IMG/VR virus record: IMGVR_UViG_3300036857_000618
Location: 1 to 27,514 of that record
Length of the DNA: 27,514 nucleotides
From: a virus
Reading direction: 5' to 3' (one strand)
Positions within the stretch are counted from its first letter, which is position 1. Every line of letters begins with the position of its first letter. The position numbers and the translations under genes were made by a program. The notes below the pieces were generated by a model. That model saw only the letters and a list, made by a program, of their open reading frames with translations. It did not search any database and had not been told where the DNA came from. Positions 4,483 to 27,514 of the stretch are shown here, piece by piece.

Positions 4483-4529
4483 GCCCCGCCGCCGGTCTCT
4501 GGGCGTGAGACATCCGGCGGCGGGGCTTT
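4483..4529 (+). terminator. Intrinsic terminator upstream of terminase
   Basis: Perfect 13-bp arms GCCCCGCCGCCGG (4483-4495) and CCGGCGGCGGGGC (4514-4526) enclose an 18-base loop, followed by TTTG. It lies between the zinc-finger gene and the terminase gene and so likely separates early from late transcription. Confidence 0.75.
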
Positions 4530-4531
4530 GC

Positions 4532-4581
4532 ATAGGACGGCGCGACCTTAGCCGCCGGTCGCGGCGACGCTGCCGTCCTAT
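4532..4581 (+). promoter_or_regulatory. Nested inverted repeat covering the terminase start codon
   Basis: Outer arms ATAGGACGGC (4532-4541) and GCCGTCCTAT (4572-4581) match perfectly over 10 bp. Inside them CGCGACC (4541-4547) pairs with GGTCGCG (4557-4563). The distal outer arm contains the first two bases of the ATG at 4580. In RNA this would bury the start region in a long stem, and no SD is present. Possible roles are translational control of terminase or a terminase/packaging recognition structure; both are inference. Confidence 0.5.
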
Positions 4582-6304
4582 GACGGCGCTCACGGCCGCC
4601 GCGCAGACGCACGCCGACGGCAGGTCCCGCGAAGCCGCCCGGCTGTTCTCCGACCTGATGGCGGTCGGCCCGGCCGTCAGGCGGGGGTTCCTCGCTGGCC
4701 TGACGCAGCGCGACTTGGAGCAGTTGCTTGGGGTCGCGGCCCGGGAGGGTGGCACCCCGTACGCGCTGTGGCGTGACGATCCGGTCGGGTTCACCGAGGA
4801 CGTGCTGGGCGAATCGCTGTGGTCCAAGCCGCGTGAGATCCTCGGGGCCATCCCAGCGGCCAAGCGCATCGCGGTGCCGTCCTGCTTCGGCTCGGGAAAA
4901 ACTTGGTCGAGCGCGCGAGCGGTCCTGTGGATGGTCTACACGCGCCCGCCGGGCACGGCCAAGGCCGTCACAATCGCCCCGCTGTGGCGCCAGGTGATCC
5001 GGCAGCTGTGGCCGGAGATCCGGACCGCGCACTCCCGGGCCGGGCTTCCCGGTGCCGTCGACATGGGTCAGCTCAAGATCCCCGACGCCAAGGGGATGGA
5101 CTTCGTGGCGGCCTACGGTATCGCCGCCGCCCCCTGGAACGAGGCCGCCGTCCAGGGCGTGCACGCGCCAAGCTTGCTGCTGGTGGTGGACGAGGCAGGC
5201 GGCATCGGCCACGTGATCGGGCGGAACCTGCGCGGCATGCTCGTCGGCGAAGGCACCCACATGCTAGCGATCGGCAACCCGCCAACCGACGAAGAGGGGT
5301 CGTGGTTCGAGGGGCTGTGTTCGGCCGACGACGTCAAGCTCATTCCGATCCGCGCAGAAGACACCCCCAACCTGAGCGGCGAGACGGCGCCGCACTGCCA
5401 CTCCTGCCCGGCCGAGGTTCCGGCGCACTCGCTCGCCACGCATCTGGTGGACGCCGACTGGGTCACCGGTACGGTCCGCGACCACGGCGAGGACTCCAAC
5501 TACGTCGCGGCCAAGGTGCACGCCATCTTCCCGAGGGGCGGCGTCTCCCGGGCCATCCCATCGACTTGGATCGACGCCGCCGCCGAGGCAGATGAGCCGG
5601 ACGGCGACACGCTCGTTGCGCTGACCGAGCTCGGGCTGGAGGGCGAGCGGGAGCCGTGGAATGTCCGGCTGGGTTCATGGGTGCGGCTGGGGATCGACGT
5701 AGCCGCCGACGGCGGAGACGAGTTCGTGATCGCGCGCTGTGTGGGCGATCTCGTGCAGATCCGGCACCGAAGCTCGGGCGCGGCCAACGCCAACCCCACC
5801 GACGTGGCCGGAATCGCACTGGCGGAGATCCGCCGGGCCGAGGAGCTGGCCAAGGCGCTGGGCACGGACGCGGCCGTCCGGGTCAAGGTGGACGGCATCG
5901 GGGTCGGCTGGGGCGTCGTCGGCATTTTGCAGGCGTGGGCCAGCGAGGGGCTGCACGACAGCGAGATCATCTCAGTGGTCGTCTCGGAGAAGACCGACCG
6001 GGAGCCGGAGTCGGCGACGCTGCGGCCGAACAAAAAGCGCGATGAGATGTGGCTGGCGATGCGCCACCTGCTCCGGCCGCGCGACGATGGGTCGGCTGGG
6101 CTGCGGCTGCGAGTGGACCAGCGCACGCTCGCGCAGCTGCGGGCGCCCGCGATGGGCACCTCGGCCAACGGCAACACGGTGATCGAGGGCAAGGCCAGCA
6201 TGAAGACGCGCGGGCTGCCGTCGCCGGACAGGGCCGAGGCGGTCATCTTGGCGTGCTACGAACCGGCGCCGTCGAAGCGCAAACGCGCCCGTCTCATTCT
6301 GTAA
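4580..6304 (+). CDS. Terminase large subunit
   Basis: The packaging motor ATPase/nuclease. From ATG 4580 it is 574 aa; a GTG at 4505 would place the start inside the terminator, so 4580 is preferred although no SD is seen. Visible motifs are a Walker-A-like SCFGSGKT (about residues 103-110), Walker B LLLVVDEAGG (about 202-211), a coupling segment with AIGNPPTDEEGSWF, and RNase-H-like nuclease acidic residues in LGIDVAADGGDEF and VKVDGIGVG. The C-terminal basic tail ends KRKRARLIL. It fits the HK97/actinophage terminase family. No small terminase is recognised nearby; the zinc-finger protein or the small upstream genes are candidates. Confidence 0.92.
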   Translation: MTALTAAAQTHADGRSREAARLFSDLMAVGPAVRRGFLAGLTQRDLEQLLGVAAREGGTPYALWRDDPVGFTEDVLGESLWSKPREILGAIPAAKRIAVPSCFGSGKTWSSARAVLWMVYTRPPGTAKAVTIAPLWRQVIRQLWPEIRTAHSRAGLPGAVDMGQLKIPDAKGMDFVAAYGIAAAPWNEAAVQGVHAPSLLLVVDEAGGIGHVIGRNLRGMLVGEGTHMLAIGNPPTDEEGSWFEGLCSADDVKLIPIRAEDTPNLSGETAPHCHSCPAEVPAHSLATHLVDADWVTGTVRDHGEDSNYVAAKVHAIFPRGGVSRAIPSTWIDAAAEADEPDGDTLVALTELGLEGEREPWNVRLGSWVRLGIDVAADGGDEFVIARCVGDLVQIRHRSSGAANANPTDVAGIALAEIRRAEELAKALGTDAAVRVKVDGIGVGWGVVGILQAWASEGLHDSEIISVVVSEKTDREPESATLRPNKKRDEMWLAMRHLLRPRDDGSAGLRLRVDQRTLAQLRAPAMGTSANGNTVIEGKASMKTRGLPSPDRAEAVILACYEPAPSKRKRARLIL

Positions 6305-7078: not shown

Positions 7079-10000
7079 GTGGCGCGCCGCTTTCTCCCCA
7101 CCTTGCGCGGACGGTCGCCCCGGCTCGAAACGGCCACCGCCGCCAGTGAACTCGAACGCAAGATCGTCCTCGCCGATTACTTCGCCGCGCTAAGCGCCGC
7201 CGGGGTGCACTCCAACGGCCAGGCCCGGCCGTGGCCGGTGGAGCGCGCGGTCGCCGAGGCGTACGAGCGGATCGTCTGGATCATGAAGTCGGTCGACGCG
7301 ATCGCCGGGCATGCCAGCCGGTTGCCGTTCCAGCTCAAGAAGGGCGAGAAGCCGGTCGATGACCACCCTCTCTATGCGGTGCTCAACGGCCAGGCCAACC
7401 CCATGGAGACCGGCCAGCAGTTCAGGAAGCGGCTCAGCCAGCAGATCCTGCTGTCCAAGCGCGGCGCGTTCGTTGAGCTGACTCGTTCCCGGGGCGGCGA
7501 GATCATCCGGATGGACCTGCTGCCGCCGGGGCGGACCTGCCCGGTGCCGGGTAACGGCCAGGAGCTGATCAAGAACTACGAGGTGGTCCGGCAGGATGGG
7601 TCGAAACGGACTATCGAGACGGAAAACGTCCGATGGTTTCGCGATCCACACCCGCTGGATCCCTACAGCGGAGTCACGCCGCTGGAGTCGGCGGGGCTCA
7701 GCGTCGAGCTCGACTTCTTCTCGCGGCTCTACAACGTCAACTTCCTGAAGAACGACGCCCGCCCCGGCGGCGTGCTCGCCATCGAGGGCGAAATGGGCGA
7801 GCCGGAGATGGACCGCATCGAGCGCAAGTTCGACAAGGGGCCGGGTGCCGCCGGGAAGCTGAGCGTGATCAACGGCGAGGTCTCTTACATCGACCTCGCG
7901 GCCCGGCCGCGCGAGATGCAGTACTCCACCACCTCGATCACGGCCAAGATCGAGTTGCTGGCCGCGTTCGGGGTGCCCGAGTCGATCCTCGGCTACGCAT
8001 CGGAGAAAACCTACGCGAACGCCGAGCAGGAGGAGTTGAACTTCTGGCGGATCACCATGCCGCCGCACCTGGCGATGCTGGCGGCCGGATTCGACGTCGA
8101 TTCCGAGGACGACCTGGACTCCGGATTCGATATCAGCGACGTCGAAGTTCTCCACAAGACAGAGATCGCACGGCGCCAAGAGGCCCGCGACGAGTTCGAC
8201 CGAGGCCTGATCTCCGCGACCGAATACCGCGACATCGCCGGGTATGACGCCGTCGACAACCCCAAGGCCCGCGCACTGTTCATCGCCTCCAACGGCAAGA
8301 CCATCGTCCCGGCCAATGGCAAGGACGCCGACGAACTGGACGCTGCCGCCCAGCAGGCCGCTCCCGGCGCTCCCGGCGGCCCTGGGGGACCGCCACCGCC
8401 TGGCGGCCCTGAGGGTGGACCGCCACCCCCCGGGCCCGCAGAGGGCGACTCTGGCGCGCCGGACGGCGTTCCTGCCCCCTCGGCGAACGGCGGTCCGCCG
8501 CCGCCAGCCGGAGGGCTCGTAACGGCCGAGGCCGGGCGGCCCGCGCTGCGGGTGGTACCGAGTGACGAGACCAAGCAAGACGGCGATGGGCCCGAGGCCG
8601 TTTACGAGACCGACCCCCGGACTCAAGAGTCCCTGGAGATGGCGCTGAACGCCGTGCTGACGGCCCTGGTGGCGCGGCTGCTGGAGCGGTCCGCGAGCCG
8701 CGCCAGCTCGCCCAAGGCGCGCAAGGGGACCCGGCATTGGCAGCCCTCGTACGCCGTTGATACCCGGGTCGGCAATAAGGCCGTCAATGCTTCCGGCGCG
8801 GTGGACGAGCAGCGCTGGCAGGCCGAGGCCGAGAGCGCCGTGCAGCCAATCCTGAAGGCCGCCGCCGCGACCATCGGCACCGGCCTGATCTCCGGTCTGG
8901 CCCTGTCACTGCCGCCTGCCGCGCTGACGGCCGCCACGGCCAAGGCCGTGCAGGAGATCGTCGAGATGGTCGGCGAGGCGTTCCAGAAGTTGGCCGGGCA
9001 GGTGACCGCTCTTGTCCGGAGTGCCGACCAGTCCGGGAAGCCCATGGAGGAGATCGTCACCTCGATCCGGGCGATGGGTCCCAGCCTCACTCGATGGGCC
9101 GCGATCATCGGCACCCAGGCGGCCACCGCCGCCGTATCGAGCGTGCAGAACGCTGTCGCGCTAGCCGCCTGGCTGGAGGAGCCAGACCGGCAGATCGTCA
9201 GGCAGTGGCGCTCCCGAAAGGATGAGAGGGTGCGGCCGACCCACAAGGAGGCGGACGGGCAGATTCGGCCGCTCGGCGAGCCGTTCGATGTGGGCGGCGG
9301 GCCGCTGCACTTTCCCGGCGACCCGAAAGGCGCGCCCGCCGAGACGTGGGGGTGCCGGTGCAAGCTCAACTGGCGGTCGAAGGCCTCTGGCCGGTATGTG
9401 CCAAAGCCAGCGGTCGAGGCGACTCGTCTCGCCACGCGGCGCAAACGGAGGATGACGGACCGAAAGGCGCTAGTCCTCCGTTTGGAACGGAAGGGCGTCT
9501 CTCACCACCATGTGCCGGGAACGCCATTCAAGTACCGCCACGGCTGGGAGCCGATCCGTGAGGAGGATGTACCGAGTAACCGTAGATTCGCAGTGCGGCC
9601 GGATGATGCCCGGCGCTCCCAGGGGCAGACCCGCTCCAATTTCATTCACCCGGTCACTCACCATGCGATGGGCAAGTCGGAGGTCGGGGACACTTACGAG
9701 GCACTGTTCGAGCAACATGTGGCCGGATTGCTCACCGAGCGGTACGGAAACCCCCCGTATCAAGCCATCGCTAAGGCCGAAGGGACCGGCAGCCGTACCA
9801 CGGCATTGGATTTCAGCGTCGACCATCGCGGCGGCGAACTAAAGAGCCTGTCCGCCGCCACCCCCAACCAGAAGACGGCGATCAAGAGAGAGGAGGTCGT
9901 ACGCAAGGAGGCGGCCGTTGCGGAGGCTGGGCTGGAGCCGTTGCTCATAGTCCAGGTGGTCGATCAGCAGAACATGTCGGTCAAGGTGTACGCCTTCGAC

Positions 10001-10141
10001 GCATTTGCGTCAAAGGCGGTCAGCAAGATGGACTACCTGGGTGGATACAGCTACACGCTGGCGGACTTCGAGGCCGCGCAAAAGCGGACCGGCCACCACG
10101 AGAAGAGGGAAGCCCGTGCCACCGCGCAGCAGGCGAGTTGA
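7079..10141 (+). CDS. Portal protein fused to MuF head-morphogenesis domain and PD-(D/E)xK-like C-terminal domain
   Basis: A 1020-residue fusion from GTG 7079 (GGGGAG just upstream). Residues about 1-420 are an HK97-type portal, the dodecameric DNA channel of the capsid vertex, with the WIMKSVDAIAGHASRLPFQL and VPESILGYASEKTYANAEQE stretches. A Pro/Gly-rich linker (about 428-482) leads to a helical region and the MuF/SPP1-gp7 core (RKDERVRPTHKEADGQ, about 711-726; ETWGCRCKLNW, about 754-764). A connector HVPGTPFKYRHGW follows. The C-terminal domain has a helix YEALFEQHVAGLL and D911-x8-E920-L-K922, the PD-(D/E)xK nuclease pattern. MuF domains are known carriers of C-terminal toxins in prophages; I infer a virion-borne nuclease effector. 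Confidence 0.85.
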   Translation: MARRFLPTLRGRSPRLETATAASELERKIVLADYFAALSAAGVHSNGQARPWPVERAVAEAYERIVWIMKSVDAIAGHASRLPFQLKKGEKPVDDHPLYAVLNGQANPMETGQQFRKRLSQQILLSKRGAFVELTRSRGGEIIRMDLLPPGRTCPVPGNGQELIKNYEVVRQDGSKRTIETENVRWFRDPHPLDPYSGVTPLESAGLSVELDFFSRLYNVNFLKNDARPGGVLAIEGEMGEPEMDRIERKFDKGPGAAGKLSVINGEVSYIDLAARPREMQYSTTSITAKIELLAAFGVPESILGYASEKTYANAEQEELNFWRITMPPHLAMLAAGFDVDSEDDLDSGFDISDVEVLHKTEIARRQEARDEFDRGLISATEYRDIAGYDAVDNPKARALFIASNGKTIVPANGKDADELDAAAQQAAPGAPGGPGGPPPPGGPEGGPPPPGPAEGDSGAPDGVPAPSANGGPPPPAGGLVTAEAGRPALRVVPSDETKQDGDGPEAVYETDPRTQESLEMALNAVLTALVARLLERSASRASSPKARKGTRHWQPSYAVDTRVGNKAVNASGAVDEQRWQAEAESAVQPILKAAAATIGTGLISGLALSLPPAALTAATAKAVQEIVEMVGEAFQKLAGQVTALVRSADQSGKPMEEIVTSIRAMGPSLTRWAAIIGTQAATAAVSSVQNAVALAAWLEEPDRQIVRQWRSRKDERVRPTHKEADGQIRPLGEPFDVGGGPLHFPGDPKGAPAETWGCRCKLNWRSKASGRYVPKPAVEATRLATRRKRRMTDRKALVLRLERKGVSHHHVPGTPFKYRHGWEPIREEDVPSNRRFAVRPDDARRSQGQTRSNFIHPVTHHAMGKSEVGDTYEALFEQHVAGLLTERYGNPPYQAIAKAEGTGSRTTALDFSVDHRGGELKSLSAATPNQKTAIKREEVVRKEAAVAEAGLEPLLIVQVVDQQNMSVKVYAFDAFASKAVSKMDYLGGYSYTLADFEAAQKRTGHHEKREARATAQQAS

Positions 10142-11399: not shown

Positions 11400-14300
11400 G
11401 TGCAACCGGTCGCTACGCCTGATGGCCTGGAGTACAAGGCGAGCACGGCCGGGCCCGACTCGGGGTTGCTCGACGCCGACGATGAGACCGGCGTGGTCGA
11501 GGCGATCGTTTCGGTCACCGGGGTCGAAGACGACGTCGCGGACATCATCGAGCCGGGGGCGTACGCCAAGACGCTGGCCCGTCGGCGTCCCAAGGGGATC
11601 TTCGTCCACGACTGGAGCAAGTGGGTCGCACGCACCGAGATGATCGAGGAGCTGCTCCCCGGCGATAAGCGACTCCCTCCCAAAACTAAGACCGGCCAGC
11701 CGTGGCCACAGGGCGCGGGCGGGCTGTATGTGCGGGCGCGTTTCAACCTCAACACCCCCGAAGGAAAGTCCGCGTACGAGAACGTCAAGTTTTTCTCGGC
11801 GACCGGCGAATGCGACTGGTCGGTTGGCTACAAAGTGCCCAAGGGCGCCGGGGTGCGCACCAAGGACGGCAAGCGCCGCATCAAGGAGATGGATCTCTAT
11901 GAGTATTCCCCGGTGCTGTTCGGCGCGGCGCCACTGTCTGGCACGCTCAGCGTAAAGACCGCCGACGCCACTGTGGAGGCCGAGGCACCCGACGTCGACT
12001 GGGACGACGTGGAGTTGCTGGCCGCCGCCGTAGAGACCGCCCTGGAGGAGTCCGGGCGGCCCGAAGGCGAACCCGCCCCGGAGGGCCCGCCGGACCCCGC
12101 TCCGGAGCCGGAGAGCGACGACTCCGAGGAGGACGACCCCGAGGCGACGCTGTACGCCAGCGAGACGGGCGGCGAATCCGAGCCCGAGGATGAGCCCGCC
12201 GAAGAGGACGGCGAAGGGGACGACGCCCCCCCCAACGTCACCCCCGAGGCGGAACCGCAACAGACAGAGTCCCCCGACGTCGAGCCCGCCATTGACGAGC
12301 CCGCCGACCCCGAGGGAAAGGCGGGAGGCCCGCCGTTCAAAAACAAGCAGCCCAAGTCCGGATCCGGCGCGAGCGCCGAGACGATGGACGGCAAGTACAA
12401 GATCACTGACGTCGCTTCGCTGAAGAACGCGATCAAGGCGTGCGGTGGCGCATCTGGTGATCAGTCCAAGTTGCGGGCCCACATCATGAAGCGGGCGTTT
12501 GCGCTGAACCGGCCGGACCTTATTCCAGACAATTGGAAGAAGACCGACTCGGGCAGCAAGGACGACGATACGGAAGGACTGGAGACAAAGCGCGACTTCT
12601 CCACCGACCGGCGTAAGAAGCTGGCCAAAGAAGGCGCGGCTCTTCCCGATGGGTCTTATCCGATCAAGACTGTTGAGGATCTTAGGAACGCGATCAGCGC
12701 GTTCGGCCGGGCCAAGCCAGAGGACCGAGACAAGGTCAAGGCGCACATCATCAAGCGGGCGCGGGCGCTCGGTCACCCCGAGCTGATTCCAGATGGGTGG
12801 GCCAGCAAGGACTCCGAGTCAAAGGTCTTCATGCCCTCGCTTCACCCACGCGACCAGCAGGGTCGTTTCGCCGTTGTTGGGCGATCCGGCATGAAGATTG
12901 GCGAGTTGCCGAACTCGTATTTCACGCCGAAGCCCTCGGGGGACGTCACGGTTGCCTCGCTGCGTCGGGGCGACGTTATTGATTATTTCGGCAGGCCGCA
13001 CATGGTGATCAGGAAGCCCAGGCCTGATCCTGACGAGCCGGGGGACGAACTCGCGCTCTGGATGGCCGCGCTGGACGACTCTGGGAAACCAGGCATGCGG
13101 GACCAGTACTTCTTCCGGCCCAAGGAGAAGTTGCGGCGGATCGCCGAAAAGAAGAACGACGCTGACCTGACGATTGAGAACAAGCTCACCCACGAGCCGC
13201 TCGACCGCAGCCCGAAGAAGAACTGGGTGGAGATGGCGGGGCAGTTGCCCGCCTACATCCAGCACATCGCCAAGGACATCCACGAGGAGAAGGGCGTCCC
13301 GCTGGACGTGGCTATCCCCACGGCGATCGCGGCGGTGAAGCGCTGGGCAGCCGGGGGCGGCAACGTCAACCCGGACACCCGGGCCAAGGCGGCGGCGGCG
13401 GTGGCCGAGTGGGAGGCGCTCAAGGCAAAATCGCACGCTCGGTCGGCGGCGCGTGAGGTTGTACGTGCATCCAAGGAGCTGCCCGAGACGATCGAGTCCG
13501 AGATCTACCCCTACCTGCCCGGCACGCTGGAGGAACTGCGTGAGCGCATCGCGGCCACAGCGGCCAAGGAGTTTGTGCCCGATGCGGCGGAGCCGGGCGA
13601 TCACCTCGTTGACGTGGTCGGGACGTGGTCCGATCGGGTGGTCGTCACTCACTACGACCTAAAGGAGGGCGGGCCTCCCAACGCGTACGAGATCCCTTAT
13701 CGACTCTCTGACGATGACGTCGTTGATCTCGGCGACCCAGAGCCGGTCATCCTCAGCGTAACCGTCGAGGGAGAGGAAGACCACGGCGAGCAGCTCTCGC
13801 CGTACCCGGCCCTGGTCGACTCGATCGTTGCGGGTGTTAAGGCCGAGCTGGCCGGGTCGCCGGAAGACAAGGCCGGGCGCGTACTCAGCGGGGTAAACGC
13901 TAACCGCCTGAGGGCGGCCGTCGAGCAACTCGTGGTGGTGCTCAAAGCGGCGGGCATTGAGATCAACGAACCGGAGAAGGACGACGGGGAAACAGAGCCG
14001 GAGCCTGCCCAAACGCAGGATTCCACGGCGCCCTCGGCGCGGGTGGGCGATGAAATAGTCCCGGCCGGGAAGGTGGTCATCGAGCCGTCCCTAGTGGCTC
14101 GCGCGTACCGGATCATGGGCGACGCGGCAAGCCTGCCACTCGGCCTCGCTCACACGGAATCAAAGGTCGGGTGGGATCCCAAAAAGCACCCCCGTGACCG
14201 CGATGGGAGGTTTATCCAAGTCGGGTCTATGGTTCACCTTCCCGGCACAGCAGAGAACGGCGTCGTCACCGGCCCCGGCGATAAACCGGGAACGGTGAAC

Positions 14301-15128
14301 GTCAACCTGGCGGATGGGTCGGGGCGGGTGGAAGCGAAGCCCTCGGACCTGCTCATCACGCGAGACGCCCCCTCTCCGAAAACTAGGGGAGGGAGTTACG
14401 ACCCGGTCGACACCCATCTTCAGCTGCAAAACATCCTGGCCTACGCGAAGTACGGCAACGATCCGTCGTTCTGGGATACCTCATCCAAAAAGCCGACGGT
14501 TACAACCCCCCCGAAAAAGCCTCAATTGCCCGATGACCCCACCATCCGGATGCTGATCCGGCGGATCGACAGGTACGGCCTGGACGAGGTTCGACGGCAG
14601 GCTGATCGAGAGTTCGGCGAGGAGGAAAGCAAGAATCGCCGCAAGCAGGTCGAAGAGGCGGCGGCGTGGATCAAGAAAAACCGGCCGCCCGCAAAGGAGT
14701 CGCCGCCGAGCGAACTCCCGAGTCTCCTTTCCAGGCTGGCGGACACTGGCGGATTCTCCTGGAGCCCGAACACCGGGAAGGCACCCAAGGACGGCTACAT
14801 GGTCGCGTTGACTGGGCACACGGTGCAGTTCGACAAGAGCCTCCTCGACGACCCCGACAAGGCTGCGGACGCGATCGTCGATTACATCCACTTTAATCGC
14901 GACCTCTTCAGCACGAATCGCGAACTTTACGTCGGTGGATGGATTGAGGGCGGTAAACTCTGGTTGGAGCCTTCTGAACGGATCGAAGGTCGTGAGGACG
15001 CGATCAAGGCCGGTAAGGAGCGGGACCAGATCGCCATCTTTGACGTCGCGGCAGGTGACGTTATTGAAACGGGAGGTAAGGGTGGCTTCCTCGAAGAAGA
15101 ACCAGCCGGTTCTGGCGCGCCTTCCTGA
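11400..15128 (+). CDS. Prohead protease polyprotein (HK97 S78-type) with multiple appended domains
   Basis: GTG 11400 follows AAGGGGG at 11387-11393. Residues 1-185 are an HK97-family prohead protease with His70 (GIFVHDWSKW) and Ser141 (GECDWSVGYK). An acidic linker (about 190-315) leads to two related helical repeats (about 329-380 and 415-465, each ending in R-P/H-x-LIPDxW, DUF6582-like from memory). Next come HPRDQQGRF (482-490), a beta domain, a helical KKNWVEMAGQLPAYIQH domain (about 606-680), a variable region, WDPKKHPRDRDGRF (925-938) with a KOW-like beta segment, and a C-terminal domain starting near 1107 (TGGFSW ... VGGWIEGGKLWLE). Typical proteases of this family are 200-300 aa. Self-processing into several virion proteins is inferred. 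Confidence 0.85.
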   Translation: MQPVATPDGLEYKASTAGPDSGLLDADDETGVVEAIVSVTGVEDDVADIIEPGAYAKTLARRRPKGIFVHDWSKWVARTEMIEELLPGDKRLPPKTKTGQPWPQGAGGLYVRARFNLNTPEGKSAYENVKFFSATGECDWSVGYKVPKGAGVRTKDGKRRIKEMDLYEYSPVLFGAAPLSGTLSVKTADATVEAEAPDVDWDDVELLAAAVETALEESGRPEGEPAPEGPPDPAPEPESDDSEEDDPEATLYASETGGESEPEDEPAEEDGEGDDAPPNVTPEAEPQQTESPDVEPAIDEPADPEGKAGGPPFKNKQPKSGSGASAETMDGKYKITDVASLKNAIKACGGASGDQSKLRAHIMKRAFALNRPDLIPDNWKKTDSGSKDDDTEGLETKRDFSTDRRKKLAKEGAALPDGSYPIKTVEDLRNAISAFGRAKPEDRDKVKAHIIKRARALGHPELIPDGWASKDSESKVFMPSLHPRDQQGRFAVVGRSGMKIGELPNSYFTPKPSGDVTVASLRRGDVIDYFGRPHMVIRKPRPDPDEPGDELALWMAALDDSGKPGMRDQYFFRPKEKLRRIAEKKNDADLTIENKLTHEPLDRSPKKNWVEMAGQLPAYIQHIAKDIHEEKGVPLDVAIPTAIAAVKRWAAGGGNVNPDTRAKAAAAVAEWEALKAKSHARSAAREVVRASKELPETIESEIYPYLPGTLEELRERIAATAAKEFVPDAAEPGDHLVDVVGTWSDRVVVTHYDLKEGGPPNAYEIPYRLSDDDVVDLGDPEPVILSVTVEGEEDHGEQLSPYPALVDSIVAGVKAELAGSPEDKAGRVLSGVNANRLRAAVEQLVVVLKAAGIEINEPEKDDGETEPEPAQTQDSTAPSARVGDEIVPAGKVVIEPSLVARAYRIMGDAASLPLGLAHTESKVGWDPKKHPRDRDGRFIQVGSMVHLPGTAENGVVTGPGDKPGTVNVNLADGSGRVEAKPSDLLITRDAPSPKTRGGSYDPVDTHLQLQNILAYAKYGNDPSFWDTSSKKPTVTTPPKKPQLPDDPTIRMLIRRIDRYGLDEVRRQADREFGEEESKNRRKQVEEAAAWIKKNRPPAKESPPSELPSLLSRLADTGGFSWSPNTGKAPKDGYMVALTGHTVQFDKSLLDDPDKAADAIVDYIHFNRDLFSTNRELYVGGWIEGGKLWLEPSERIEGREDAIKAGKERDQIAIFDVAAGDVIETGGKGGFLEEEPAGSGAPS

Positions 15129-15414: not shown

Positions 15415-15574
15415 CGGGCCGGGCGAGACGTAAGCGAAACGCGTCCCCTATGGTACCCATCGATCGGGACGTCCCGGTGCTGACCGGGCGGACGACAACC
15501 ACCACCCCAGCAACGTTCGCGGCCCCGCCAGCCGAGTGCTGAGCCGTGGCCGCCGTCCGCCAAAGGAAAGCACC

Positions 15575-16897
15575 ATGCCCACGGATACGGGGCGCCTGAA
15601 GGAGCTGAACAAGGCCCTCCAGGCCAAGGCCAGCGAGATCGACGATCTGGCAAACGGCTGGAAGGACGAGACCGGCGAGGGCCACTTTGTCGTTTCCACC
15701 GAACAGCGTGACGCCTACCTCAAGGCCATCAGCGAAGCCGAGGAGATCAAGAGCCTCGTCGTCGCCGAGGAGAAGGCGCGCAACATCCACGAGTTCCTCC
15801 AGCAGCCCGAGCCGGGCTCGGAGGGCGGCCACGAAACCGCCGAGACCGGGCGCGAGCTCCGCCGGAGCATCAAGACGCTCGCCGAGGCGTACCTGGAGTC
15901 GGACGCCTACCGCGAGATGAAGGCGGGCGGGTTCCGCAACTTCGGCCAGATCGCGACGTTCGATACCGGGCTGACCGGGTTCTCCCAGAAGGACGTCTAC
16001 AGCGACATGGCCGGGACCATCCCGATCAACGCGCTCGGCACGCCGCAGAACCTCGGCCTCACCCCGCGCATGTTGCGCCCCGGTCGGGTCCGCGATCTCT
16101 TCCCGGCGGAGACGACCAGCGCGAATCTGCTCTACGGCATTCGCGAAAGCGGCTTCACCAACAACGCCGCCATCGTCTCGGAACGGCGCGCGGCCGACGG
16201 CACCAGCGTGCCGACCGGCGGTGCGACGGACGTGTTCGGACTGAAGCCCAAGAGCAACATCAGCTTCACGACGATCACGTACCCCGTAGCCACCGTAGCC
16301 CACATCCTCTATGCCCACCGCAACACCCTGGACGACGAGCCGCGCCTGCGCGGGTTGATCGACCGGGACATGATCGACGGCATCAAGATGGTCGAGGACG
16401 AGCAGATCCTCTACGGGGACGGCGTTGGCGACAACCTCACCGGGATCATCAACACCCCCGGGGTCCAGACCTACACTGGCCTGTCCTCGGACCCGCGCAC
16501 TGCGCAGATCCGGCGCGCGATGACGCGGGCGATCCTGGCGTACTTCACCCCGACCGGTGTCGTGGTCCACCCGCTCGACTGGGAAGACCTGGAGCTGGAG
16601 CAGGACAACAACGGTGCCTACCGGCTCGCGGTCAACATCGCGGTCGGCGGCGAGCAGCGCATGTGGCGCATGAACGTCGTCGACACCCCCGCCATCACGG
16701 AAGGGCAGTACCTCCTCGGCGCGTTCGGCACTGGGGCGAAGCTGTACGACCGTGAGCAGGTGAACATCCAGGTGAGCACGGAGAACCGCGACCTCTGGGA
16801 GAGGAACGCCGTGACCTTCCGTGCCGAGGAACGCCTGGCCGTGACTGTAGATCGCCCGGAGAGCTTCGTCGTCGGAGCGATCACCACACCGGCGTAA
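15575..16897 (+). CDS. Major capsid protein (HK97 fold)
   Basis: ATG 15575 is preceded by AAAGGAAAG at 15562-15570; an upstream in-frame start at 15536 lacks an SD. The 440-residue protein has a charged helical N-terminal delta/scaffold domain (about 1-105; LKELNKALQAKASEIDDLAN, FLQQPEPGSEGGHETAETGR). The HK97 shell fold follows: an N-arm, an E-loop (ESGFTNNAAIVSERRAADGT), then the P and A domains (LYGDGVGDNLTGIINTPGVQ is the hallmark G-x-G-x2-x2-GI motif). The delta domain is normally removed by the upstream protease. A terminator follows. Confidence 0.92.
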   Translation: MPTDTGRLKELNKALQAKASEIDDLANGWKDETGEGHFVVSTEQRDAYLKAISEAEEIKSLVVAEEKARNIHEFLQQPEPGSEGGHETAETGRELRRSIKTLAEAYLESDAYREMKAGGFRNFGQIATFDTGLTGFSQKDVYSDMAGTIPINALGTPQNLGLTPRMLRPGRVRDLFPAETTSANLLYGIRESGFTNNAAIVSERRAADGTSVPTGGATDVFGLKPKSNISFTTITYPVATVAHILYAHRNTLDDEPRLRGLIDRDMIDGIKMVEDEQILYGDGVGDNLTGIINTPGVQTYTGLSSDPRTAQIRRAMTRAILAYFTPTGVVVHPLDWEDLELEQDNNGAYRLAVNIAVGGEQRMWRMNVVDTPAITEGQYLLGAFGTGAKLYDREQVNIQVSTENRDLWERNAVTFRAEERLAVTVDRPESFVVGAITTPA

Positions 16898-16977: not shown

Positions 16978-18693
16978 GTGCCCCCCCACTGGATTCCCGG
17001 TCGTGGACGCAAGGGCCCTTGGGTCGCCACGCTGTCGAACGTGCATGAACTTCAGTGGCGCCTTGGGCGGGTGGCGCTGACGGCGAGACCCCGGCGCGCA
17101 ATCATCCGGGTCACCGAGAGCAAGGTCGTCCGCCGGATCCCGTGGGATCCTCGGTTGCACCCACGGGATCCGCACGGCCAGTTCGCCACCACCGGCTCGA
17201 CGGGGCAGCACCACATCGAGCTGGGGACACCGGGGCGCACGCTCACGGACCGGGAGTACGAGGAGCACGCCAAGGAGATCGAGACGCAGATCGCCGCCGC
17301 GCTCAAGGCGGGCCTGGTCACCAACAAGATGTACACGCTGGGCGGCGACGGCATTACCTACACGCCTGAGCGCGCCGCGCAGCAGAAAGAAGTCGTCGAT
17401 GAGCTGCTCGACAAGTACCGGAACGTCCCGGCCGACGGCAAGGCGATCATCTCTGGCGGACTCGGCGGTGCCGGGAAATCCACGGTGCTGAGCCAATTCG
17501 CGGGCGTGGATATGTCGCAGTACGCGGTGGTCAACCCCGACGACATCAAGGAGCTGATGGTCCAGCACGGCATGGCCCCCGAGGTGCCCGGCCTGACCCC
17601 GATGGAGGCCGCCACGACCTTCCACGAGGAGTCGACGTTCATCGCCCAGACGTTCCTGTCCGCGCTTCTGGGGCAGCGCAAGAACATCATTTGGGACGGC
17701 TCGATGTCGTGGATGCCGTGGATGGACGAGAACCTCGACAAGATGAGGAAGGCCGGATATAGGGACATCGGCGCCGTCTTCGTTGACATTCCGGTGCAGA
17801 ACTCGGCCGACCGGGCACTCAGCCGCTGGCGAGAGGGCCTGGAAATGTATCGCCGGGGCGAAAGCGTTCTGGGAGGCAGGTACATGCCGCCCTCAGTGAT
17901 CAAGCGCAACGCGACCAAGGACGGCAGCAGCGTCAACCGGAAGAACTTCGAGGTGCTCAAGCCAAAATTCGACTCGTGGGAGCTCTGGGACAACTCGGTC
18001 TGGGGCCGGGACCCGGTGGAGGTCGCCAGCAGCCATCCTCGTGGCCGCGCGCTGCCCACGGCCAAACGGGATGTGACGGTTCTGCCCCGGCTGGGGGCAC
18101 ATCCGTTCGGTCAGACGTGGCAGGAAGACCCGGACCGAACGCATCGCGCCGACGGTTTTTGGGCCAAGTCGTACAAGGGCATGCACACCATCAAGACCGC
18201 CTACCGAAACCGTCGCGCCGGGCGCGACCCGCTCGATGGCATGCCGGACGATGTCCTGCAACGACGGTTCAAATACGATCTGCTGCATCCCGGCAACGGC
18301 AACGACAACAATGGCTACACGCTGGACTCGCTCAAGGCTGACATCGAGTCGGCGGTCGACAACATCGATCAACGCCTGGCGAACGCCGATGTCCGCACCA
18401 CGCGGCTGTACCGGGGGTTCCGCACCGACAACCTCTTCACCGTCGGCGAAGAGTTCGACGTCGACCTGGCGTCCTGGACCGAGGACAAGGACTGGGCTGC
18501 CTACTACGCGGGCAAGCAGGACGATCTCAGCGTCGGGAAGTACCCGGTCATCATGCGGATGCAGGGCAAAAAGCACAGCGTGCCGGTCGGCGCGCTAGTG
18601 CACCAGAGGGAGCATCTCGCGCGGGGCCGCTACCGCGTCGTAAAAGCCTACAAGCGGGGGATGTATCAAGTCGTCGTTGTGGAGGAGCTGTGA
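16978..18693 (+). CDS. Double toxin: zeta-type kinase plus R-S-E ADP-ribosyltransferase, with HPRD cargo motif
   Basis: The start is uncertain: GTG 16978 touches the terminator, while GTG 17041 and 17071 are alternatives without a clear SD. Residues 56-69 carry WDPRLHPRDPHGQF. About 145-340 is a zeta-toxin P-loop kinase: Walker A GGLGGAGKS with K167, N186-P-D-D189-I-K, and the FHEESTFIAQTFLSALLG helix before IIWDGS. Zeta toxins phosphorylate UDP-N-acetylglucosamine. The C-terminus is an R-S-E-class mono-ADP-ribosyltransferase: LYRG with R479, S499-W-T, then Q543-R-E545 in HQREHLARGRYRVV. The position directly after the capsid gene suggests packaging and injection, like phage T4 Alt. Targets are unknown. 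Confidence 0.85.
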   Translation: MPPHWIPGRGRKGPWVATLSNVHELQWRLGRVALTARPRRAIIRVTESKVVRRIPWDPRLHPRDPHGQFATTGSTGQHHIELGTPGRTLTDREYEEHAKEIETQIAAALKAGLVTNKMYTLGGDGITYTPERAAQQKEVVDELLDKYRNVPADGKAIISGGLGGAGKSTVLSQFAGVDMSQYAVVNPDDIKELMVQHGMAPEVPGLTPMEAATTFHEESTFIAQTFLSALLGQRKNIIWDGSMSWMPWMDENLDKMRKAGYRDIGAVFVDIPVQNSADRALSRWREGLEMYRRGESVLGGRYMPPSVIKRNATKDGSSVNRKNFEVLKPKFDSWELWDNSVWGRDPVEVASSHPRGRALPTAKRDVTVLPRLGAHPFGQTWQEDPDRTHRADGFWAKSYKGMHTIKTAYRNRRAGRDPLDGMPDDVLQRRFKYDLLHPGNGNDNNGYTLDSLKADIESAVDNIDQRLANADVRTTRLYRGFRTDNLFTVGEEFDVDLASWTEDKDWAAYYAGKQDDLSVGKYPVIMRMQGKKHSVPVGALVHQREHLARGRYRVVKAYKRGMYQVVVVEEL

Positions 18694-19972: not shown

Positions 19973-20326
19973 GTGACTACCATCGTTGTCCGCGTGCTGG
20001 GTCGCGACGTTCTTGAGCTGACGTTCAGGGGCGCCCCGCAGGACTCGCCGGAAGCCGCTCCCGAACCCGAGCGACTCCTGGGGTTCTCCGGCGGGGCCAT
20101 CGTTCAAGCGGAGCGCTCGTGGCTGGACACGAACGACGACATGGCGGTGAATGCCCGTGAGCCTGGCCATCGACGCGCCTTCGGTTTCGGTTTCGAAAGG
20201 GACGTCGCCACTGGTCGGGACCTAGACTTGCACCCGTGCCTTGGACCCCTTCCGTCGGCGCGATCGGCCTCACCTCCGCCTACGGCTGGGCCTCGGTCAT
20301 CACCGCCGTTGGGCAGTTTGCCCTGA
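19973..20326 (+). CDS. Hypothetical protein, 117 aa, apparently leaderless
   Basis: GTG 19973 has no SD but a TACGGT -10 eight bases upstream. The N-terminal half reads like a small beta-strand protein (TTIVVRVLGRDVLELTFRG), followed by an acidic Pro linker and FGFGFERDVATGRDLDL. The last 90 bases overlap the next gene in another frame and are low-complexity Pro/Ser, so the natural product may be shorter or the 3' end may have drifted. The protospacer matched by the array (20194-20227) lies in its 3' part. Function unknown. Confidence 0.45.
   Translation: MTTIVVRVLGRDVLELTFRGAPQDSPEAAPEPERLLGFSGGAIVQAERSWLDTNDDMAVNAREPGHRRAFGFGFERDVATGRDLDLHPCLGPLPSARSASPPPTAGPRSSPPLGSLP
20194..20227 (-). 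other. Protospacer matched by array spacer 27335-27368
   Basis: The minus strand here equals the array spacer at 32 of 34 positions; mismatches fall at spacer positions 24 and 31. The identity starts and stops exactly at the spacer edges. On the matching strand the 5' flank plus the first base reads AAG, the canonical type I-E PAM. It covers the end of the 19973 ORF and most of the TAGACT -10 of the 20236 gene. Confidence 0.85.
20223..20228 (+). promoter_or_regulatory. -10 box for leaderless gene
   Basis: TAGACT ends seven bases before GTG 20236; no SD is visible, which predicts a leaderless mRNA. Five of the six bases lie in the protospacer. Confidence 0.45.
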
Positions 20327-20736
20327 CCGATCCCGCTCCGTTCACACACGCGCTCGTCGTGCTGGACGGCCAGACAGCCATGGAGCCGTGGCCGAACGGC
20401 GCCCGGCATGTGAGCCTGGCCGATTTTGATGACTTCCCGATCACCTACATAACTCCGTCGTTGAACGACCACGAGCGAAGCGCCGTAGCGGCGGCTGCGC
20501 GGTCCCTGGACGGCGTGCCATACCGGGTGCGGGATTACCAGGCGCTGGCGTTGTGGCGGCTCGGATGGCACGGCAAACGAGTCGGCCGTACGGTCGCCGA
20601 CTCCCGATATCTACTCCCGGGCCAGTTCGTCGCGGAGACATACCGGCGCGCCGGGCGTCCGCTGTTCGACGATGCCATGGATGTGACCGTCGGGGACCTC
20701 GGAACATTGCTGATACAGGGGCTGCTATCCCGCTAG
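20236..20736 (+). CDS. NlpC/P60-like (YiiX/DUF830-type) fold protein lacking the catalytic cysteine
   Basis: GTG 20236, apparently leaderless. The 166-residue protein shows the papain-like amidase layout of the YiiX branch: FTHALVVLDGQ with the His, EPWPNGARHVSLADF, then YRVRDYQALALWRLG, and LLPGQFVAETYRRAG. In active relatives the last segment reads C-S-x-F/L-V; here the Cys-Ser is Pro-Gly, and the protein has no cysteine at all. It is therefore probably inactive as a peptidase and may bind peptidoglycan or lipids. Its stop is tail-to-tail with the GntR gene, both stops sharing one CTAG. Confidence 0.6.
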   Translation: MPWTPSVGAIGLTSAYGWASVITAVGQFALTDPAPFTHALVVLDGQTAMEPWPNGARHVSLADFDDFPITYITPSLNDHERSAVAAAARSLDGVPYRVRDYQALALWRLGWHGKRVGRTVADSRYLLPGQFVAETYRRAGRPLFDDAMDVTVGDLGTLLIQGLLSR

Positions 20737-23497: not shown

Positions 23498-24127
23498 CTA
23501 GGTTGCCACCAGCCAGAAGTGGTTCGACTCACCCCACGACCCGGGCGGGTAATGCGGGTGCCGCACAGCGCGAAGCCGATCTCCGTATGCGTTCCCGATC
23601 ATCTGCCGGATGCGCCAGCCAAGGTCGGCGTTGTGGACCTCGATGAACAGCTGTGGCTTGCGCTCGATGATCGTTCGCAGGCCGCCGAGCACCACGAGCG
23701 CGTCGTGCCCCTCGACGTCGACCTTAATGAAGTCGGGAGTGCCGTGCCGTTCGGCCAGGGTGTCGAGGGTCGCGCCGGGCACGGTCCGCCGGTCGAGGAT
23801 CTTTCCCCAGTCCTGCCCGTCGGCGTTCGCCGAGGTGAGCTGCCCCTTGGCGATGTGGGCGTCCTGCACGGTGAGGGTGACTGGGCCGTCCATGCCCGTG
23901 ACGGCGGTCTGCACGGCCGTGGCGTTGGGGAACTTCTCGGCCGCCTTGGCGAGCAGCCCAAACGACTCGTCCGCCGGTTCGAAGCTGACCACGTGATCAA
24001 ACCTGGAGGCGAAGACGCGCAGCGACTGGCCCACGTTGCCGCCAACGTCGAACGCCAGGCACCCGGTGAACCCATCCATGATCTTCGCGATCTGGGGCGG
24101 GTCCGGGGCGGCGACTTGCTGTATCAC
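23498..24127 (-). CDS. FkbM-family methyltransferase
   Basis: GTG 24127 follows AAGGAGG and overlaps the upstream stop (GTGA). Length 209 aa. The Rossmann SAM-binding motif is LAFDVGGNVGQSLRVF (about residues 26-41). The acidic strand-2 end VVSFEP and the family hallmark FIKVDVEGHDALVVLGG are present, and the C-terminal QLFIEVHN completes the core. FkbM enzymes O-methylate sugars and other hydroxyls. It is the last gene of a four-gene decoration operon with a glycosyltransferase and a sulfotransferase-like protein. The natural substrate is presumably a glycan on virion or cell-surface components. Confidence 0.85.
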   Translation of the reverse strand: MIQQVAAPDPPQIAKIMDGFTGCLAFDVGGNVGQSLRVFASRFDHVVSFEPADESFGLLAKAAEKFPNATAVQTAVTGMDGPVTLTVQDAHIAKGQLTSANADGQDWGKILDRRTVPGATLDTLAERHGTPDFIKVDVEGHDALVVLGGLRTIIERKPQLFIEVHNADLGWRIRQMIGNAYGDRLRAVRHPHYPPGSWGESNHFWLVAT

Positions 24128-24510
24128 TTGGCCTCCTTGCGGATCTCCTCGGGCAGCCGCAACTCGACGCCGAGCGTGATCGAAAGCCGCGCCACCGCAT
24201 CCTCGGGCGCACGGACAAGATCTTCGTATGACATCAGTAGCGGGTCGAGCGCTCTCAGCGCCTCCAGGGCGTGCTCTCGGCGCTGTTCGGCGTCGAGCTC
24301 GTCCCGGGCGTGCCCCGCCGCTATTGCCGAGGCGATCGTGGCCGCCCGGTCCCTGACGATCATCACGATATGATCGTGATCGACATCGGCAGGCCCCCAC
24401 CACCAGCCGCCGTGCGGCATCGACCGGTGCTCGGCGTCCGCACCGGTCGCTACGATCCGGGCAAGTAGCCGGGTTCCGCTGGACTCTGGGCCCGTGCACA
24501 GAACCCTCAA
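24124..24510 (-). CDS. Sulfotransferase-like P-loop protein
   Basis: TTG 24510 is preferred because it overlaps the upstream stop (TTGA), has GGAG upstream, and places the first strand at the N-terminus; GTG 24537 is the alternative. The 128-residue protein has VLCTGPESSGTRLLARI, resembling the 5'-phosphosulfate loop of PAPS sulfotransferases. HIVMIVRDRAATIASAI, matching the 3'-phosphate segment, and a late LMSYEDLV follow. It is short for the family (usually 250 or more aa), so it may be a minimal variant. It is coupled to both neighbours by 4-bp overlaps. Confidence 0.65.
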   Translation of the reverse strand: MRVLCTGPESSGTRLLARIVATGADAEHRSMPHGGWWWGPADVDHDHIVMIVRDRAATIASAIAAGHARDELDAEQRREHALEALRALDPLLMSYEDLVRAPEDAVARLSITLGVELRLPEEIRKEAK

Positions 24511-25667
24511 CGCGGTGCGCTCCAGTCGGCGACCCACTGCTCCAGGGACTCCAGCGCGGGCTTCCAGTTCTCGACGAGAACCTTGTCGGCGTCGTAGCCC
24601 AGCGCGAAGTCACGGGCCCGCGCCGACCGCTTGGCCGCTTCGCCGTCGTAAGCCTTCACCAGCGTGCGGGTCAAGTGATCGACGTCCGGGGCCATCCACC
24701 AGGCCTGGTGCATCGGCACCCAGTAACGGTGGCCGCGCACCCTCCACCCGGCACCGGTCAGCTCGGACATGGCCGAGCAATCGGTGGTGATCACCGGCAC
24801 GCCGCAGGCCTGCGCTTCGAGGATGGGTAGGCCGAACCCCTCGCCGTAGCTGGCGTTGCTCACCACGTCGCAGCAGTTGTAGAGACCGGCCAGATAGGCG
24901 GGCGTGAGCATCCCGCTCGTGTAGGCGTACTGGTCGGAGAACCGTACGGCGTCGGCGATCCCCAGGTCGGCGATCAGCGGCGTCAGGTCCATCCCGAACG
25001 GTGACTTGACCTGGCTGTGCACCAGCAGCACCGCGTCGCGGTGGCGGCGATGCAGCCGGGCGAACGCCTCGAACTGCTGAGGGAACGCCTTCCGGCTCGG
25101 GTCCTTGCCTCGGTTGGCCGCGTTGATGCCGACCACGAAGGCGTCGCGCGGGATGGCCATCTCGTCGCGCAGCGAGGCGCGGTCCTCGTGCGGCCGGAAC
25201 GTGTCCACATCCACAGCGTGCGGCACGTAGAGGGCATTGTGCCCGGCATCAATAAGCTGCTGGTGCCCGAACCGCGACATGGCGATCGGGAGAGCGTGGG
25301 ACCGCTTCAGCCAGCCGTGGTCCATCGCCGAGAGCGGTTTGGTGTCGACCGGCATCCAGCTCGCCGTCGGCACCTGCGCGACGATCTCCGGCGAGAGCAC
25401 CCACACGTCGGTGAGTGTGATCACCACCCCCGGCTCGCTGTCGAAGTGCAGCGCGGCGCGCTCGGCGTACACGTCGTTGTTGTAGGTGTCCTGGCCGCCG
25501 GGGAGGACGGTCAATCCGTTCCATTCGACGGGCTTGCCCTGAAGGCCGATGAACGCCGAGATCACGACGTCGTGGCCGAGCGCGGCGATGCGTGGCGCGA
25601 ACAGCGCGGTCTGCTGACCATAGCCTGTCGTCGTCCAGGGGCTGTTCGCGTGCCAGACGATCTTCAC
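24507..25667 (-). CDS. Glycosyltransferase family 4 (GT-B)
   Basis: GTG 25667 overlaps the previous stop (GTGA); in-frame sequence further upstream is a shadow of that gene. Length 386 aa. The N-terminal Rossmann domain begins VKIVWHANSPWTTTGYGQQT with a Gly-rich acceptor loop. The C-terminal donor-binding domain has VVGINAANRGKDPSRKAFPQ and the GT4 signature SYGEGFGLPILEAQACGVPV (E-x7-E), which binds the nucleotide-sugar diphosphate. Actinophages are known to carry glycosyltransferases that modify virion proteins. Here it leads a cluster with sulfo- and methyl-transferases, so a decorated glycan is inferred. Confidence 0.88.
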   Translation of the reverse strand: MKIVWHANSPWTTTGYGQQTALFAPRIAALGHDVVISAFIGLQGKPVEWNGLTVLPGGQDTYNNDVYAERAALHFDSEPGVVITLTDVWVLSPEIVAQVPTASWMPVDTKPLSAMDHGWLKRSHALPIAMSRFGHQQLIDAGHNALYVPHAVDVDTFRPHEDRASLRDEMAIPRDAFVVGINAANRGKDPSRKAFPQQFEAFARLHRRHRDAVLLVHSQVKSPFGMDLTPLIADLGIADAVRFSDQYAYTSGMLTPAYLAGLYNCCDVVSNASYGEGFGLPILEAQACGVPVITTDCSAMSELTGAGWRVRGHRYWVPMHQAWWMAPDVDHLTRTLVKAYDGEAAKRSARARDFALGYDADKVLVENWKPALESLEQWVADWSAPR

Positions 25668-25942
25668 TGGCTTACCTCGTCGTAAGTCGCCCGGAAGATC
25701 GTGTCGCGGACCGGATAGAACTCGCCCTGGATCCCCTGCACGATCCAGTCCCCAATCTGCGCCGTCATCTCGCCCTCCAGTGTCACGATCGCGAACCGCT
25801 GGTCGGGAGTGCCGGACTGCGTCACCACGGCCGAGCCGCCAGATTTGCCGATCCAGTCGATCACCGCGCCGGAGTTCATCCCACTCCAACGCATGGCTGA
25901 GATCTCAACGGCCCGTTTGTGGTACCTCTTCGGGGAATGCAC
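25664..25942 (-). CDS. Conserved small phage protein (GDWIVxGxxGEFYPV type)
   Basis: GTG 25942, first gene of the decoration operon; there is no SD, but a minus-strand TAGCGT -10 ends six bases upstream. The 92-residue sequence matches a widespread small phage family. It opens YHKRAVEISAMRWSG, has LEGEMTAQIGDWIVQGIQGE in the middle, and closes FYPVRDTIFRATYDEV. The function of this family is unknown despite its abundance. Its stop overlaps the glycosyltransferase start, so it is translated with the operon. Confidence 0.75.
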   Translation of the reverse strand: MHSPKRYHKRAVEISAMRWSGMNSGAVIDWIGKSGGSAVVTQSGTPDQRFAIVTLEGEMTAQIGDWIVQGIQGEFYPVRDTIFRATYDEVSQ

Positions 25943-25948
25943 GCGGCG

Positions 25949-25954
25949 ACGCTA
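25949..25954 (-). promoter_or_regulatory. -10 box of decoration operon (leaderless)
   Basis: Minus-strand TAGCGT ends six bases before GTG 25942, the same leaderless geometry as four plus-strand genes nearby. The -35 is weak. Confidence 0.4.
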
Positions 25955-25981
25955 GCGACCGCATGCGAGCAAGGTCGCGCT

Positions 25982-26539
25982 GTGAAGTTCGTTCCTGCGT
26001 CCGATCTCGATCTGGTGATGGCGCGGCGCGCCGCGAACATCGTGGACCGTCTCAAACAGGACGTTCAGACCGAGGCCCGACGCCGGGCCCCTGCCGCGAA
26101 GAGGTGGGTTACGCGGCACGACAACCGCGTCCGGCACTGGCACGTGCTCACCAACGGTCAGACGATCCCGGCGAACCTTCGCTACCGGGTACAGCGGGTC
26201 AAGTACCTCCGCAAGGGCAAGGACAAGCACGGCAAGGCGATCAACCCGGCGGGCGGTTGGAAGATCCTCGAAGGGCAGTACGACCTTGGCCGAGCCCCTC
26301 ACGACCCGGCGCTGCCAATCGAGCAGACGATCAACTGCCGCTGTAGGAGTGTGGTCATCCCAGAGCTAGTAGCGCTTTCCATCCACACGACCGTGACCCA
26401 CATTGAGGGCAAACGCGCAGTCGCCGAAATCAACTGCTTCTTCCCCCGGGCGGCCGAGTCCGAATTCGGCACGTCCGAGGACCGACCAGCCCGGTTCATG
26501 CGCGGTGCGATCGAGGAGGTCACTCGCCGCCTCCATTGA
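25982..26539 (+). CDS. MuF/gp10-like minor head or head-tail protein
   Basis: Start uncertain: GTG 25982 (AAGG nine bases upstream) or ATG 25937. From 25982 it is 185 aa. The N-terminal helix bundle is followed by a MuF/SPP1-gp7-like core: WVTRHDNRVRHWHVLTNGQT, then PHDPALPIEQTINCRC, the INCRC signature. The C-terminal third resembles HK97 gp10/minor tail proteins (AEINCFFPRAAESEFGTSED, FMRGAIEEVTRR). It therefore appears to fuse two head-tail-junction elements. It is the last phage gene before the array, and no tail genes follow within the window. Confidence 0.7.
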   Translation: MKFVPASDLDLVMARRAANIVDRLKQDVQTEARRRAPAAKRWVTRHDNRVRHWHVLTNGQTIPANLRYRVQRVKYLRKGKDKHGKAINPAGGWKILEGQYDLGRAPHDPALPIEQTINCRCRSVVIPELVALSIHTTVTHIEGKRAVAEINCFFPRAAESEFGTSEDRPARFMRGAIEEVTRRLH

Positions 26540-26715
26540 TCTGCCAGCCGTCGCCCCCCTTCGTCCGCCAGGCGCGACGTTAGGGAATTGCCCCTTCGGC
26601 GTCGAACTCGCGATCCTGTCGCCCTCCTCTCCGCTACATCCCGAACCCGAACCACGACCCGCCATCCCCTTCTGCAAGCGGATGTGCTGCCATTCCCACC
26701 CCAGACCACCAAGCA
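26540..26715. other. Spacer region between phage gene and array
   Basis: 176 bases with no convincing ORF, promoter or AT-rich leader. A stretch near 26549-26574 (GTCGCCCCCCTTCGTCC) weakly recalls the array repeat, but its distance to the first repeat is not a multiple of the array period. No att-like direct repeat was found. Confidence 0.4.
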
Positions 26716-27514
26716 CTTCCGCCCCCGCGTCCGTGGGCCGGAGGGGGCTGCCGCCGGTCAGTTCCTTGCGCCGGATACCGCCGCCGCCCCCGCGCCCGTG
26801 GGCCGGAGAGGGCATCGGGTGACCGCCGCCATCGGCCTGATTCCGCCGCCCCCGCGCCCGTGGGCACCACCGCTCATGTGCGACGGTGGGTGAACCCGCC
26901 GCCCCCGCGTCCGTGGGCTGGAGCCACGAATGCAATTTGCACAGACGTCGGAGGACCGCCGCCCCCCGCGTCCGTTGGGCCGAAGTGCTGACCACCGCTC
27001 AATTCCCGCCGCCCCCGCGCCCGATGGGCCGGAGAGCAACCCCTGGTGCCGCCGCCCCCCCGCGTCCGTAGGCCGGAGGTCTCGCGCTCTGCCGACGTGA
27101 TCATCGTCGGCCCGCCGCCCCTGCCGCCCCCCGCGCCCGTGGGCCGGAGATGGGCACGACAGCCGACGCACGGGTGATGCTCCCGCCGCCCCCGCGCGCC
27201 CGTGGGCCGGAGGCCCGCCGGGCCGTGATGTTGCGGATGTCGGACCTGCCGCCCCCCGCGCCCGTGGGCCGGAGACCGGCCGGAAGCCGACCACGCTGAT
27301 CCACCCCCGCCGCCCCCGCGCCCGTGGGCCAGAGGTCTAGGTCCCGACCAGTGGCGAGGTCCCTCTCGCCGCCGCCCCCGCGCCCGTGGGCCGGAGGTGT
27401 CCCCGGGCAGAGGTCGTCGCCGGAGAGTCCCGCCGCCCCCCCCGCGCCCGTTGGGCCAGAGGCCCGCTGCACGCCCTCGACGAACTCCCTTGACCGTCGC
27501 CCCCGCGCCCGTGG
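26716..27514 (+). CRISPR. CRISPR array, type I-E-like repeats, 3' end beyond window
   Basis: Fourteen repeats start at 26716, 26781, 26843, 26896, 26956, 27006, 27049, 27121, 27183, 27246, 27307, 27369, 27430 and 27494 (cut by the edge). The consensus is 28 nt: CCGCCGCCCCCGCG followed by CCCGTGGGCCGGAG. It forms a CCCGC-GCCC-GTGGG stem-loop like type I-E repeats. In the right half spacing is 61-64 with spacers of 32-34 nt; in the left half it is 43-72 with spacers of 14-42 nt and indels in repeats. All spacers differ. Plus-strand transcription is favoured by the G-U pair (A-C on the other strand) and by the AAG PAM of the matched protospacer. The more degenerate left end argues the opposite. 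No cas gene is in the window. Confidence 0.85.

Follow-up and report, generated by a model that had tools for sequence, protein, structure and literature searches.

The Saccharolobus portogloboviruses SPV1 and SPV2 bear CRISPR arrays without cas genes, and the carriers have point mutations at the site that a spacer matches (PMC6858448). Arrays without cas genes also occur in huge phages, where they may use host Cas proteins (PMC7162821; reviewed in PMC11656645). Archaea provide the best evidence for virus-borne arrays directed against rival viruses. Here, the window is a complete IMG/VR virus record of 27,514 bases, free of N, which ends in a CRISPR-like array, and one spacer of this array matches a site within the phage DNA that precedes it. 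We see an even chance that this is a cas-less phage-borne array, which would work in the manner of the virus-borne mini-arrays directed at relatives. The more detailed version is possible, and we hold it tentatively: a cargo slot of this phage family would hold a 13-spacer cas-less array, through which the virus turns borrowed type I-E Cas proteins of the host on competing relatives, while it keeps its own near-perfect target.

The phage part of the record

The region from 4.5 to 26.5 kb is a phage head module, with genes for terminase, portal-MuF, protease, capsid and minor capsid proteins:

4505–6304, + strand: terminase large subunit
7079–10141, + strand: portal-MuF fusion protein
11400–15128, + strand: large protein (1242 aa) with a prohead protease domain
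15536–16897, + strand: major capsid protein
25919–26539, + strand: minor capsid (MuF-like) gene with a complete C terminus; head-tail genes normally come next

Relatives in IMG/VR were obtained through capsid alignment; the portal protein, used as a single IMG/VR query, returned none. In the closest of them (L013), the terminase, portal and capsid are 63–67% identical over the best aligned pieces. The closest named phage is Streptomyces phage Gilgamesh, which has a 129 kb genome and a tyrosine integrase, and the carrier is probably a temperate actinobacteriophage. In Gilgamesh, portal and capsid are separated by a single 13.9-kb gene, annotated as coding for a hypothetical protein (L009 22841–36715).

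Between the capsid and minor-capsid genes lie accessory genes for a zeta-toxin-like ATPase, a GntR regulator, a peptidoglycan-binding protein, an FkbM methyltransferase, a glycosyltransferase and a protein with a weak sulfotransferase match. The zeta-toxin-like ATPase domain belongs to a large protein encoded directly after the capsid gene (16978–18693), and its L013 homologue is found downstream of the tail-terminator gene instead. The glycosyltransferase, possible sulfotransferase and FkbM methyltransferase genes stand in tandem on the minus strand within the head module (23498–25889). The first 4.4 kb showed no clear phage homologue except a protein resembling the RNA polymerase alpha C-terminal domain (ORF 1759–2505, Pfam E 2.7e-23), which also has weak similarity to PglW.

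The array and its spacers

26716–27514, + strand: CRISPR-like array with 13 spacers and 14 repeats, the last of which is truncated where the record stops; consensus CCGCCGCCCCCGCGCCCGTGGGCCGGAG

Type I-E arrays have repeats of 28–30 nt, spacers about as long and a period of about 61. Repeats here are 28–30 nt long, with numerous indels, and start-to-start spacing is 61–64 in the right half and an irregular 43–72 in the left half, where seven repeats are degenerate. Spacers range from 14 to 42 nt and are regular (32–36) in the right half only. Actinobacterial type I-E repeats (arrays in L003, L006 and L008) share the repeat core CCCCGCGCCCGTGGG without a difference and in the same orientation, and in a Streptomyces plasmid a full cas operon (casA-cas2) immediately precedes a closely similar array. 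Since the core has the same orientation as in those arrays, the array reads on the plus strand, as do the head genes, and its leader side faces the phage. The degenerate half is thus the leader-side end, expected to be the young one. The 3′ part of the repeat reads CCGGAG, and the usual I-E handle (..GAACCG/..GAGCC) is absent; the repeat folds no better than its shuffles, and an Rfam search gave no match.

Degeneracy of the left half suggests little maintenance of the array. Low coverage at the contig end may also be a source of the repeat variation. Record-wide raw-read error was considered as a cause and rejected, as the large phage ORFs are intact. No convincing cas gene was found within the record by Pfam and PADLOC searches of the main ORFs, a result that covers the left side of the array only since the record ends at 27514, inside the array; the sole cas-like signal was a marginal helix-turn-helix match to Csa3 in the GntR regulator.

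The exact repeat occurs nowhere else in IMG/VR and 84,980 species genomes, and no host genome in the searched collection has the whole repeat. Apart from a 20-bp tandem repeat (L007) and one match in a MAG (L004), a search with two spaced cores returned further I-E arrays of actinobacteria only. A solitary copy of the repeat core is present in Gilgamesh (L010 22432) within GC-rich low-complexity DNA, where about one match is expected by chance; the intergenic stretch that holds it (L010 22270–23030, Gilgamesh about 72.3–73.0 kb) is dense in GCGCGC/GGCGCGCC motifs.

The spacer that links array and phage, its target and the adjacent gene are as follows:

27335–27368, + strand: spacer 11 of 13, 34 nt, GTCTAGGTCCCGACCAGTGGCGAGGTCCCTCTCG; matches the phage part of its own record
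20194–20227, − strand: protospacer, 32/34, minus-strand sequence GTCTAGGTCCCGACCAGTGGCGACGTCCCTTTCG; 5′ flank on the matching strand ...GTGCAA
20236–20736, + strand: ORF with the protospacer in its 5′ region; homologue in L013, 40% over 174 aa

The match described by the original prediction was recovered in full: the spacer is the gapless reverse complement of the protospacer over 32/34 positions, mismatches fall only at spacer positions 24 and 31, and identity is confined within the repeat boundaries, as the bases flanking both match ends differ. When positions 20100–20340 were compared with their own record by blastn, spacer 11 was the second match (94%, E 4.9e-10). Control 34-mers from related phages (n = 400) reached at most 29/34, mostly 21–22, against 32 for spacer 11, and shuffled spacers gave a top score of 17 against 29. 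The GTG at 20236 follows the protospacer after 8 bp. The further claim that the array samples phages of this kind holds as well, in that the source of spacer 11, which sits in a type I-E-like array, is this phage or one closely related to it. A virus-borne array is expected to target related viruses and to find a mutated version of the target in its carrier, as spacer 11 does within its own record.

The proposed AAG PAM stands in part. AA directly adjoins the match at its 5′ side, on the strand expected from repeat orientation; the strict 5′ trinucleotide is CAA, and AAG is obtained only when the first matched G is included. Including it follows the practice for E. coli, where the PAM supplies the last repeat base; in this array, the base that follows the repeat varies. 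AA itself is compatible with type I-E PAMs of other bacteria. A single protospacer is one case, not proof, and is insufficient to define the PAM of this array; the other candidate, for spacer 10, has TCC.

That several spacers would match related phages, as had been anticipated, was not borne out: only spacer 11, 1 of 13, does. For the remaining 12, the best ungapped matches in the phage part are at chance level, and across loci totalling 1.6 Mb, most of them from phage relatives, no spacer besides 11 rose above shuffled controls. Pattern searches of IMG/VR with spacers 8, 9 and 11 gave no match, and thus no perfectly matching donor of spacer 11. Spacer 10 has a 22-nt seed match, 26/32 overall, which falls inside a portal-like gene in each of two further virus contigs:

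L096 2129–2160: candidate target of spacer 10
L097 417–448: candidate target of spacer 10

We judged this candidate weak or due to chance, given the wrong flank (TCC) and the empty results of the other scans.

The junction and its possible origins

Viral genes are seen to the left of the array only. The array starts 177 bp past the intact minor-capsid stop codon:

26540–26715, no strand assigned: junction from the minor-capsid stop codon to the first repeat; unlike the relatives' next gene

The minor-capsid protein aligns to residue 204 of 206, and similarity to phages goes no further than the stop codon. Of the relatives, 37 offered enough sequence for comparison, and in every one the tail-terminator gene comes next after the minor-capsid gene, across a gap of 28–2305 bp (median about 400); the small gene that follows the minor-capsid gene in L013 is absent here. 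Three relatives hold accessory genes on the minus strand in this gap, among which we read Ku-like, solute-binding-like and membrane protein genes by eye:

L041 16361–18664, − strand
L040 14487–16066, − strand
L023 15878–17120, − strand

This phage family thus uses the gap between the minor-capsid and tail-terminator genes as a cargo site, and an array carried by the phage is plausible for that reason. Intergenic DNA makes up only about 5% of the comparable Gilgamesh region, so a random break would seldom fall at a gene boundary. The clean junction, in a gap that relatives use for cargo, favours the reading in which array and phage lie on one molecule. A leader or promoter would also be expected of a virus-borne array; a consensus scan of 26540–26715 detected no promoter-like site and no recognisable leader.

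It is rather unlikely, in our view, that the record is an assembly or library chimera, in which a host array and the phage it was immunised against were joined in a contig, and the match would then reflect ordinary host immunity. The array does sit at the extreme end of the record, base composition jumps within it, and none of the fetched relatives, including the 37 informative ones at the gap, has an array. However, the junction falls just past an intact stop codon, with no N, and a random join would seldom bring an array together with its own target phage, unless that pair dominates the sample; moreover, the matching spacer lies away from the junction, which means that the two were not joined through the match. 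The gene boundary weighs in the same way on an unlikely scenario of decay, where a deletion or rearrangement fused the remnant of a broken prophage, reaching only as far as the minor-capsid gene, to an orphan host array: such a cut is unexpected from random deletion, all large phage genes are intact and the phage part is without decay. In favour of this scenario, an old array that had once sampled related phages could have degenerate repeats and be without leader or cas genes; many relatives are 60–130 kb IMG/VR records with isolate-type identifiers, probably prophages, judging from record names; and attachment sites do not normally lie at such a position, which calls for a rearrangement.

The degenerate, leaderless state of the array would also suit an RNA decoy similar to Racrs, in which the repeats titrate host type I-E Cas proteins and the spacers are relics, and RNA anti-CRISPRs against type I-E are known (PMC10651486). 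We regard this as very improbable: known Racrs are solitary repeats, often directly behind a promoter, whereas there are 14 repeats here and a genuine phage-matching spacer.

Under the phage-borne reading, the type I-E-like cas-less array would be cargo between the minor-capsid and tail-terminator genes of a temperate actinobacteriophage. It would be transcribed on the plus strand, in crRNA sense and on the same strand as the head genes, and type I-E Cas6e, Cascade and Cas3 of the host would process and use its crRNAs. Spacer 11 would have been acquired from a related phage and would serve against such relatives as superinfection exclusion; in other words, the virus may have stolen an immune memory and turned it on its own kin. 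The carrier's own mismatches at positions 24 and 31 may weaken self-attack, but type I-E usually tolerates PAM-distal mismatches and, therefore, these two alone do not explain self-tolerance. Phase-limited expression, array decay or an inactive or absent Cas system would presumably be needed as well. Several points count against the phage-borne reading: no tail genes are seen to the right of the array, as the record stops there, no leader or promoter was found, the 3′ handle is atypical, the young end is degenerate, one spacer in 13 matches, and the search for the host of the repeat came up empty.

If the phage-borne reading is true, this tailed actinophage, with a target in cis, would be a testbed for how a virus evades its own borrowed immunity and for how array cargo enters a late operon. 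If the record is a chimera or a remnant, we are looking at ordinary host immunity, and the host of the array once met such a phage, nothing more.

Comparison with known systems

Among actinobacterial type I-E arrays, those of Streptomyces angustmyceticus plasmid p1, Herbidospora solisilvae and Scrofimicrobium canadense share with the record the core CCCCGCGCCCG(T/C)GGG, its orientation and a period near 61. Their repeats are regular and their 3′ handle is unlike that of the record; in the Streptomyces plasmid, a cas operon and leader precede the array, unlike in the record described here. Solitary repeat units (Racrs) resemble the locus as CRISPR-repeat-like sequence in a cas-less phage, whereas the array here has multiple repeats with spacers, one of which matches a phage (PMC10651486).

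The huge-phage arrays are compact, with a median of six repeats, and are similar to ours as tailed-phage arrays that possibly borrow host Cas proteins, with some spacers directed against other phages (PMC7162821). Huge phages, however, exceed 200 kb and many have some cas genes, in contrast to a 27.5-kb fragment with none (PMC7162821). The likeness to SPV1 and SPV2 extends to a cas-less viral array, a spacer that matches a site in that virus group, a point-mutated site in the carrier and a target located in the same genome region (PMC6858448). SPV arrays have 1–2 spacers with a host-like leader and repeats (PMC6858448), whereas the record has 13 spacers, degenerate repeats, no leader found and an actinobacterial tailed phage as the putative carrier.
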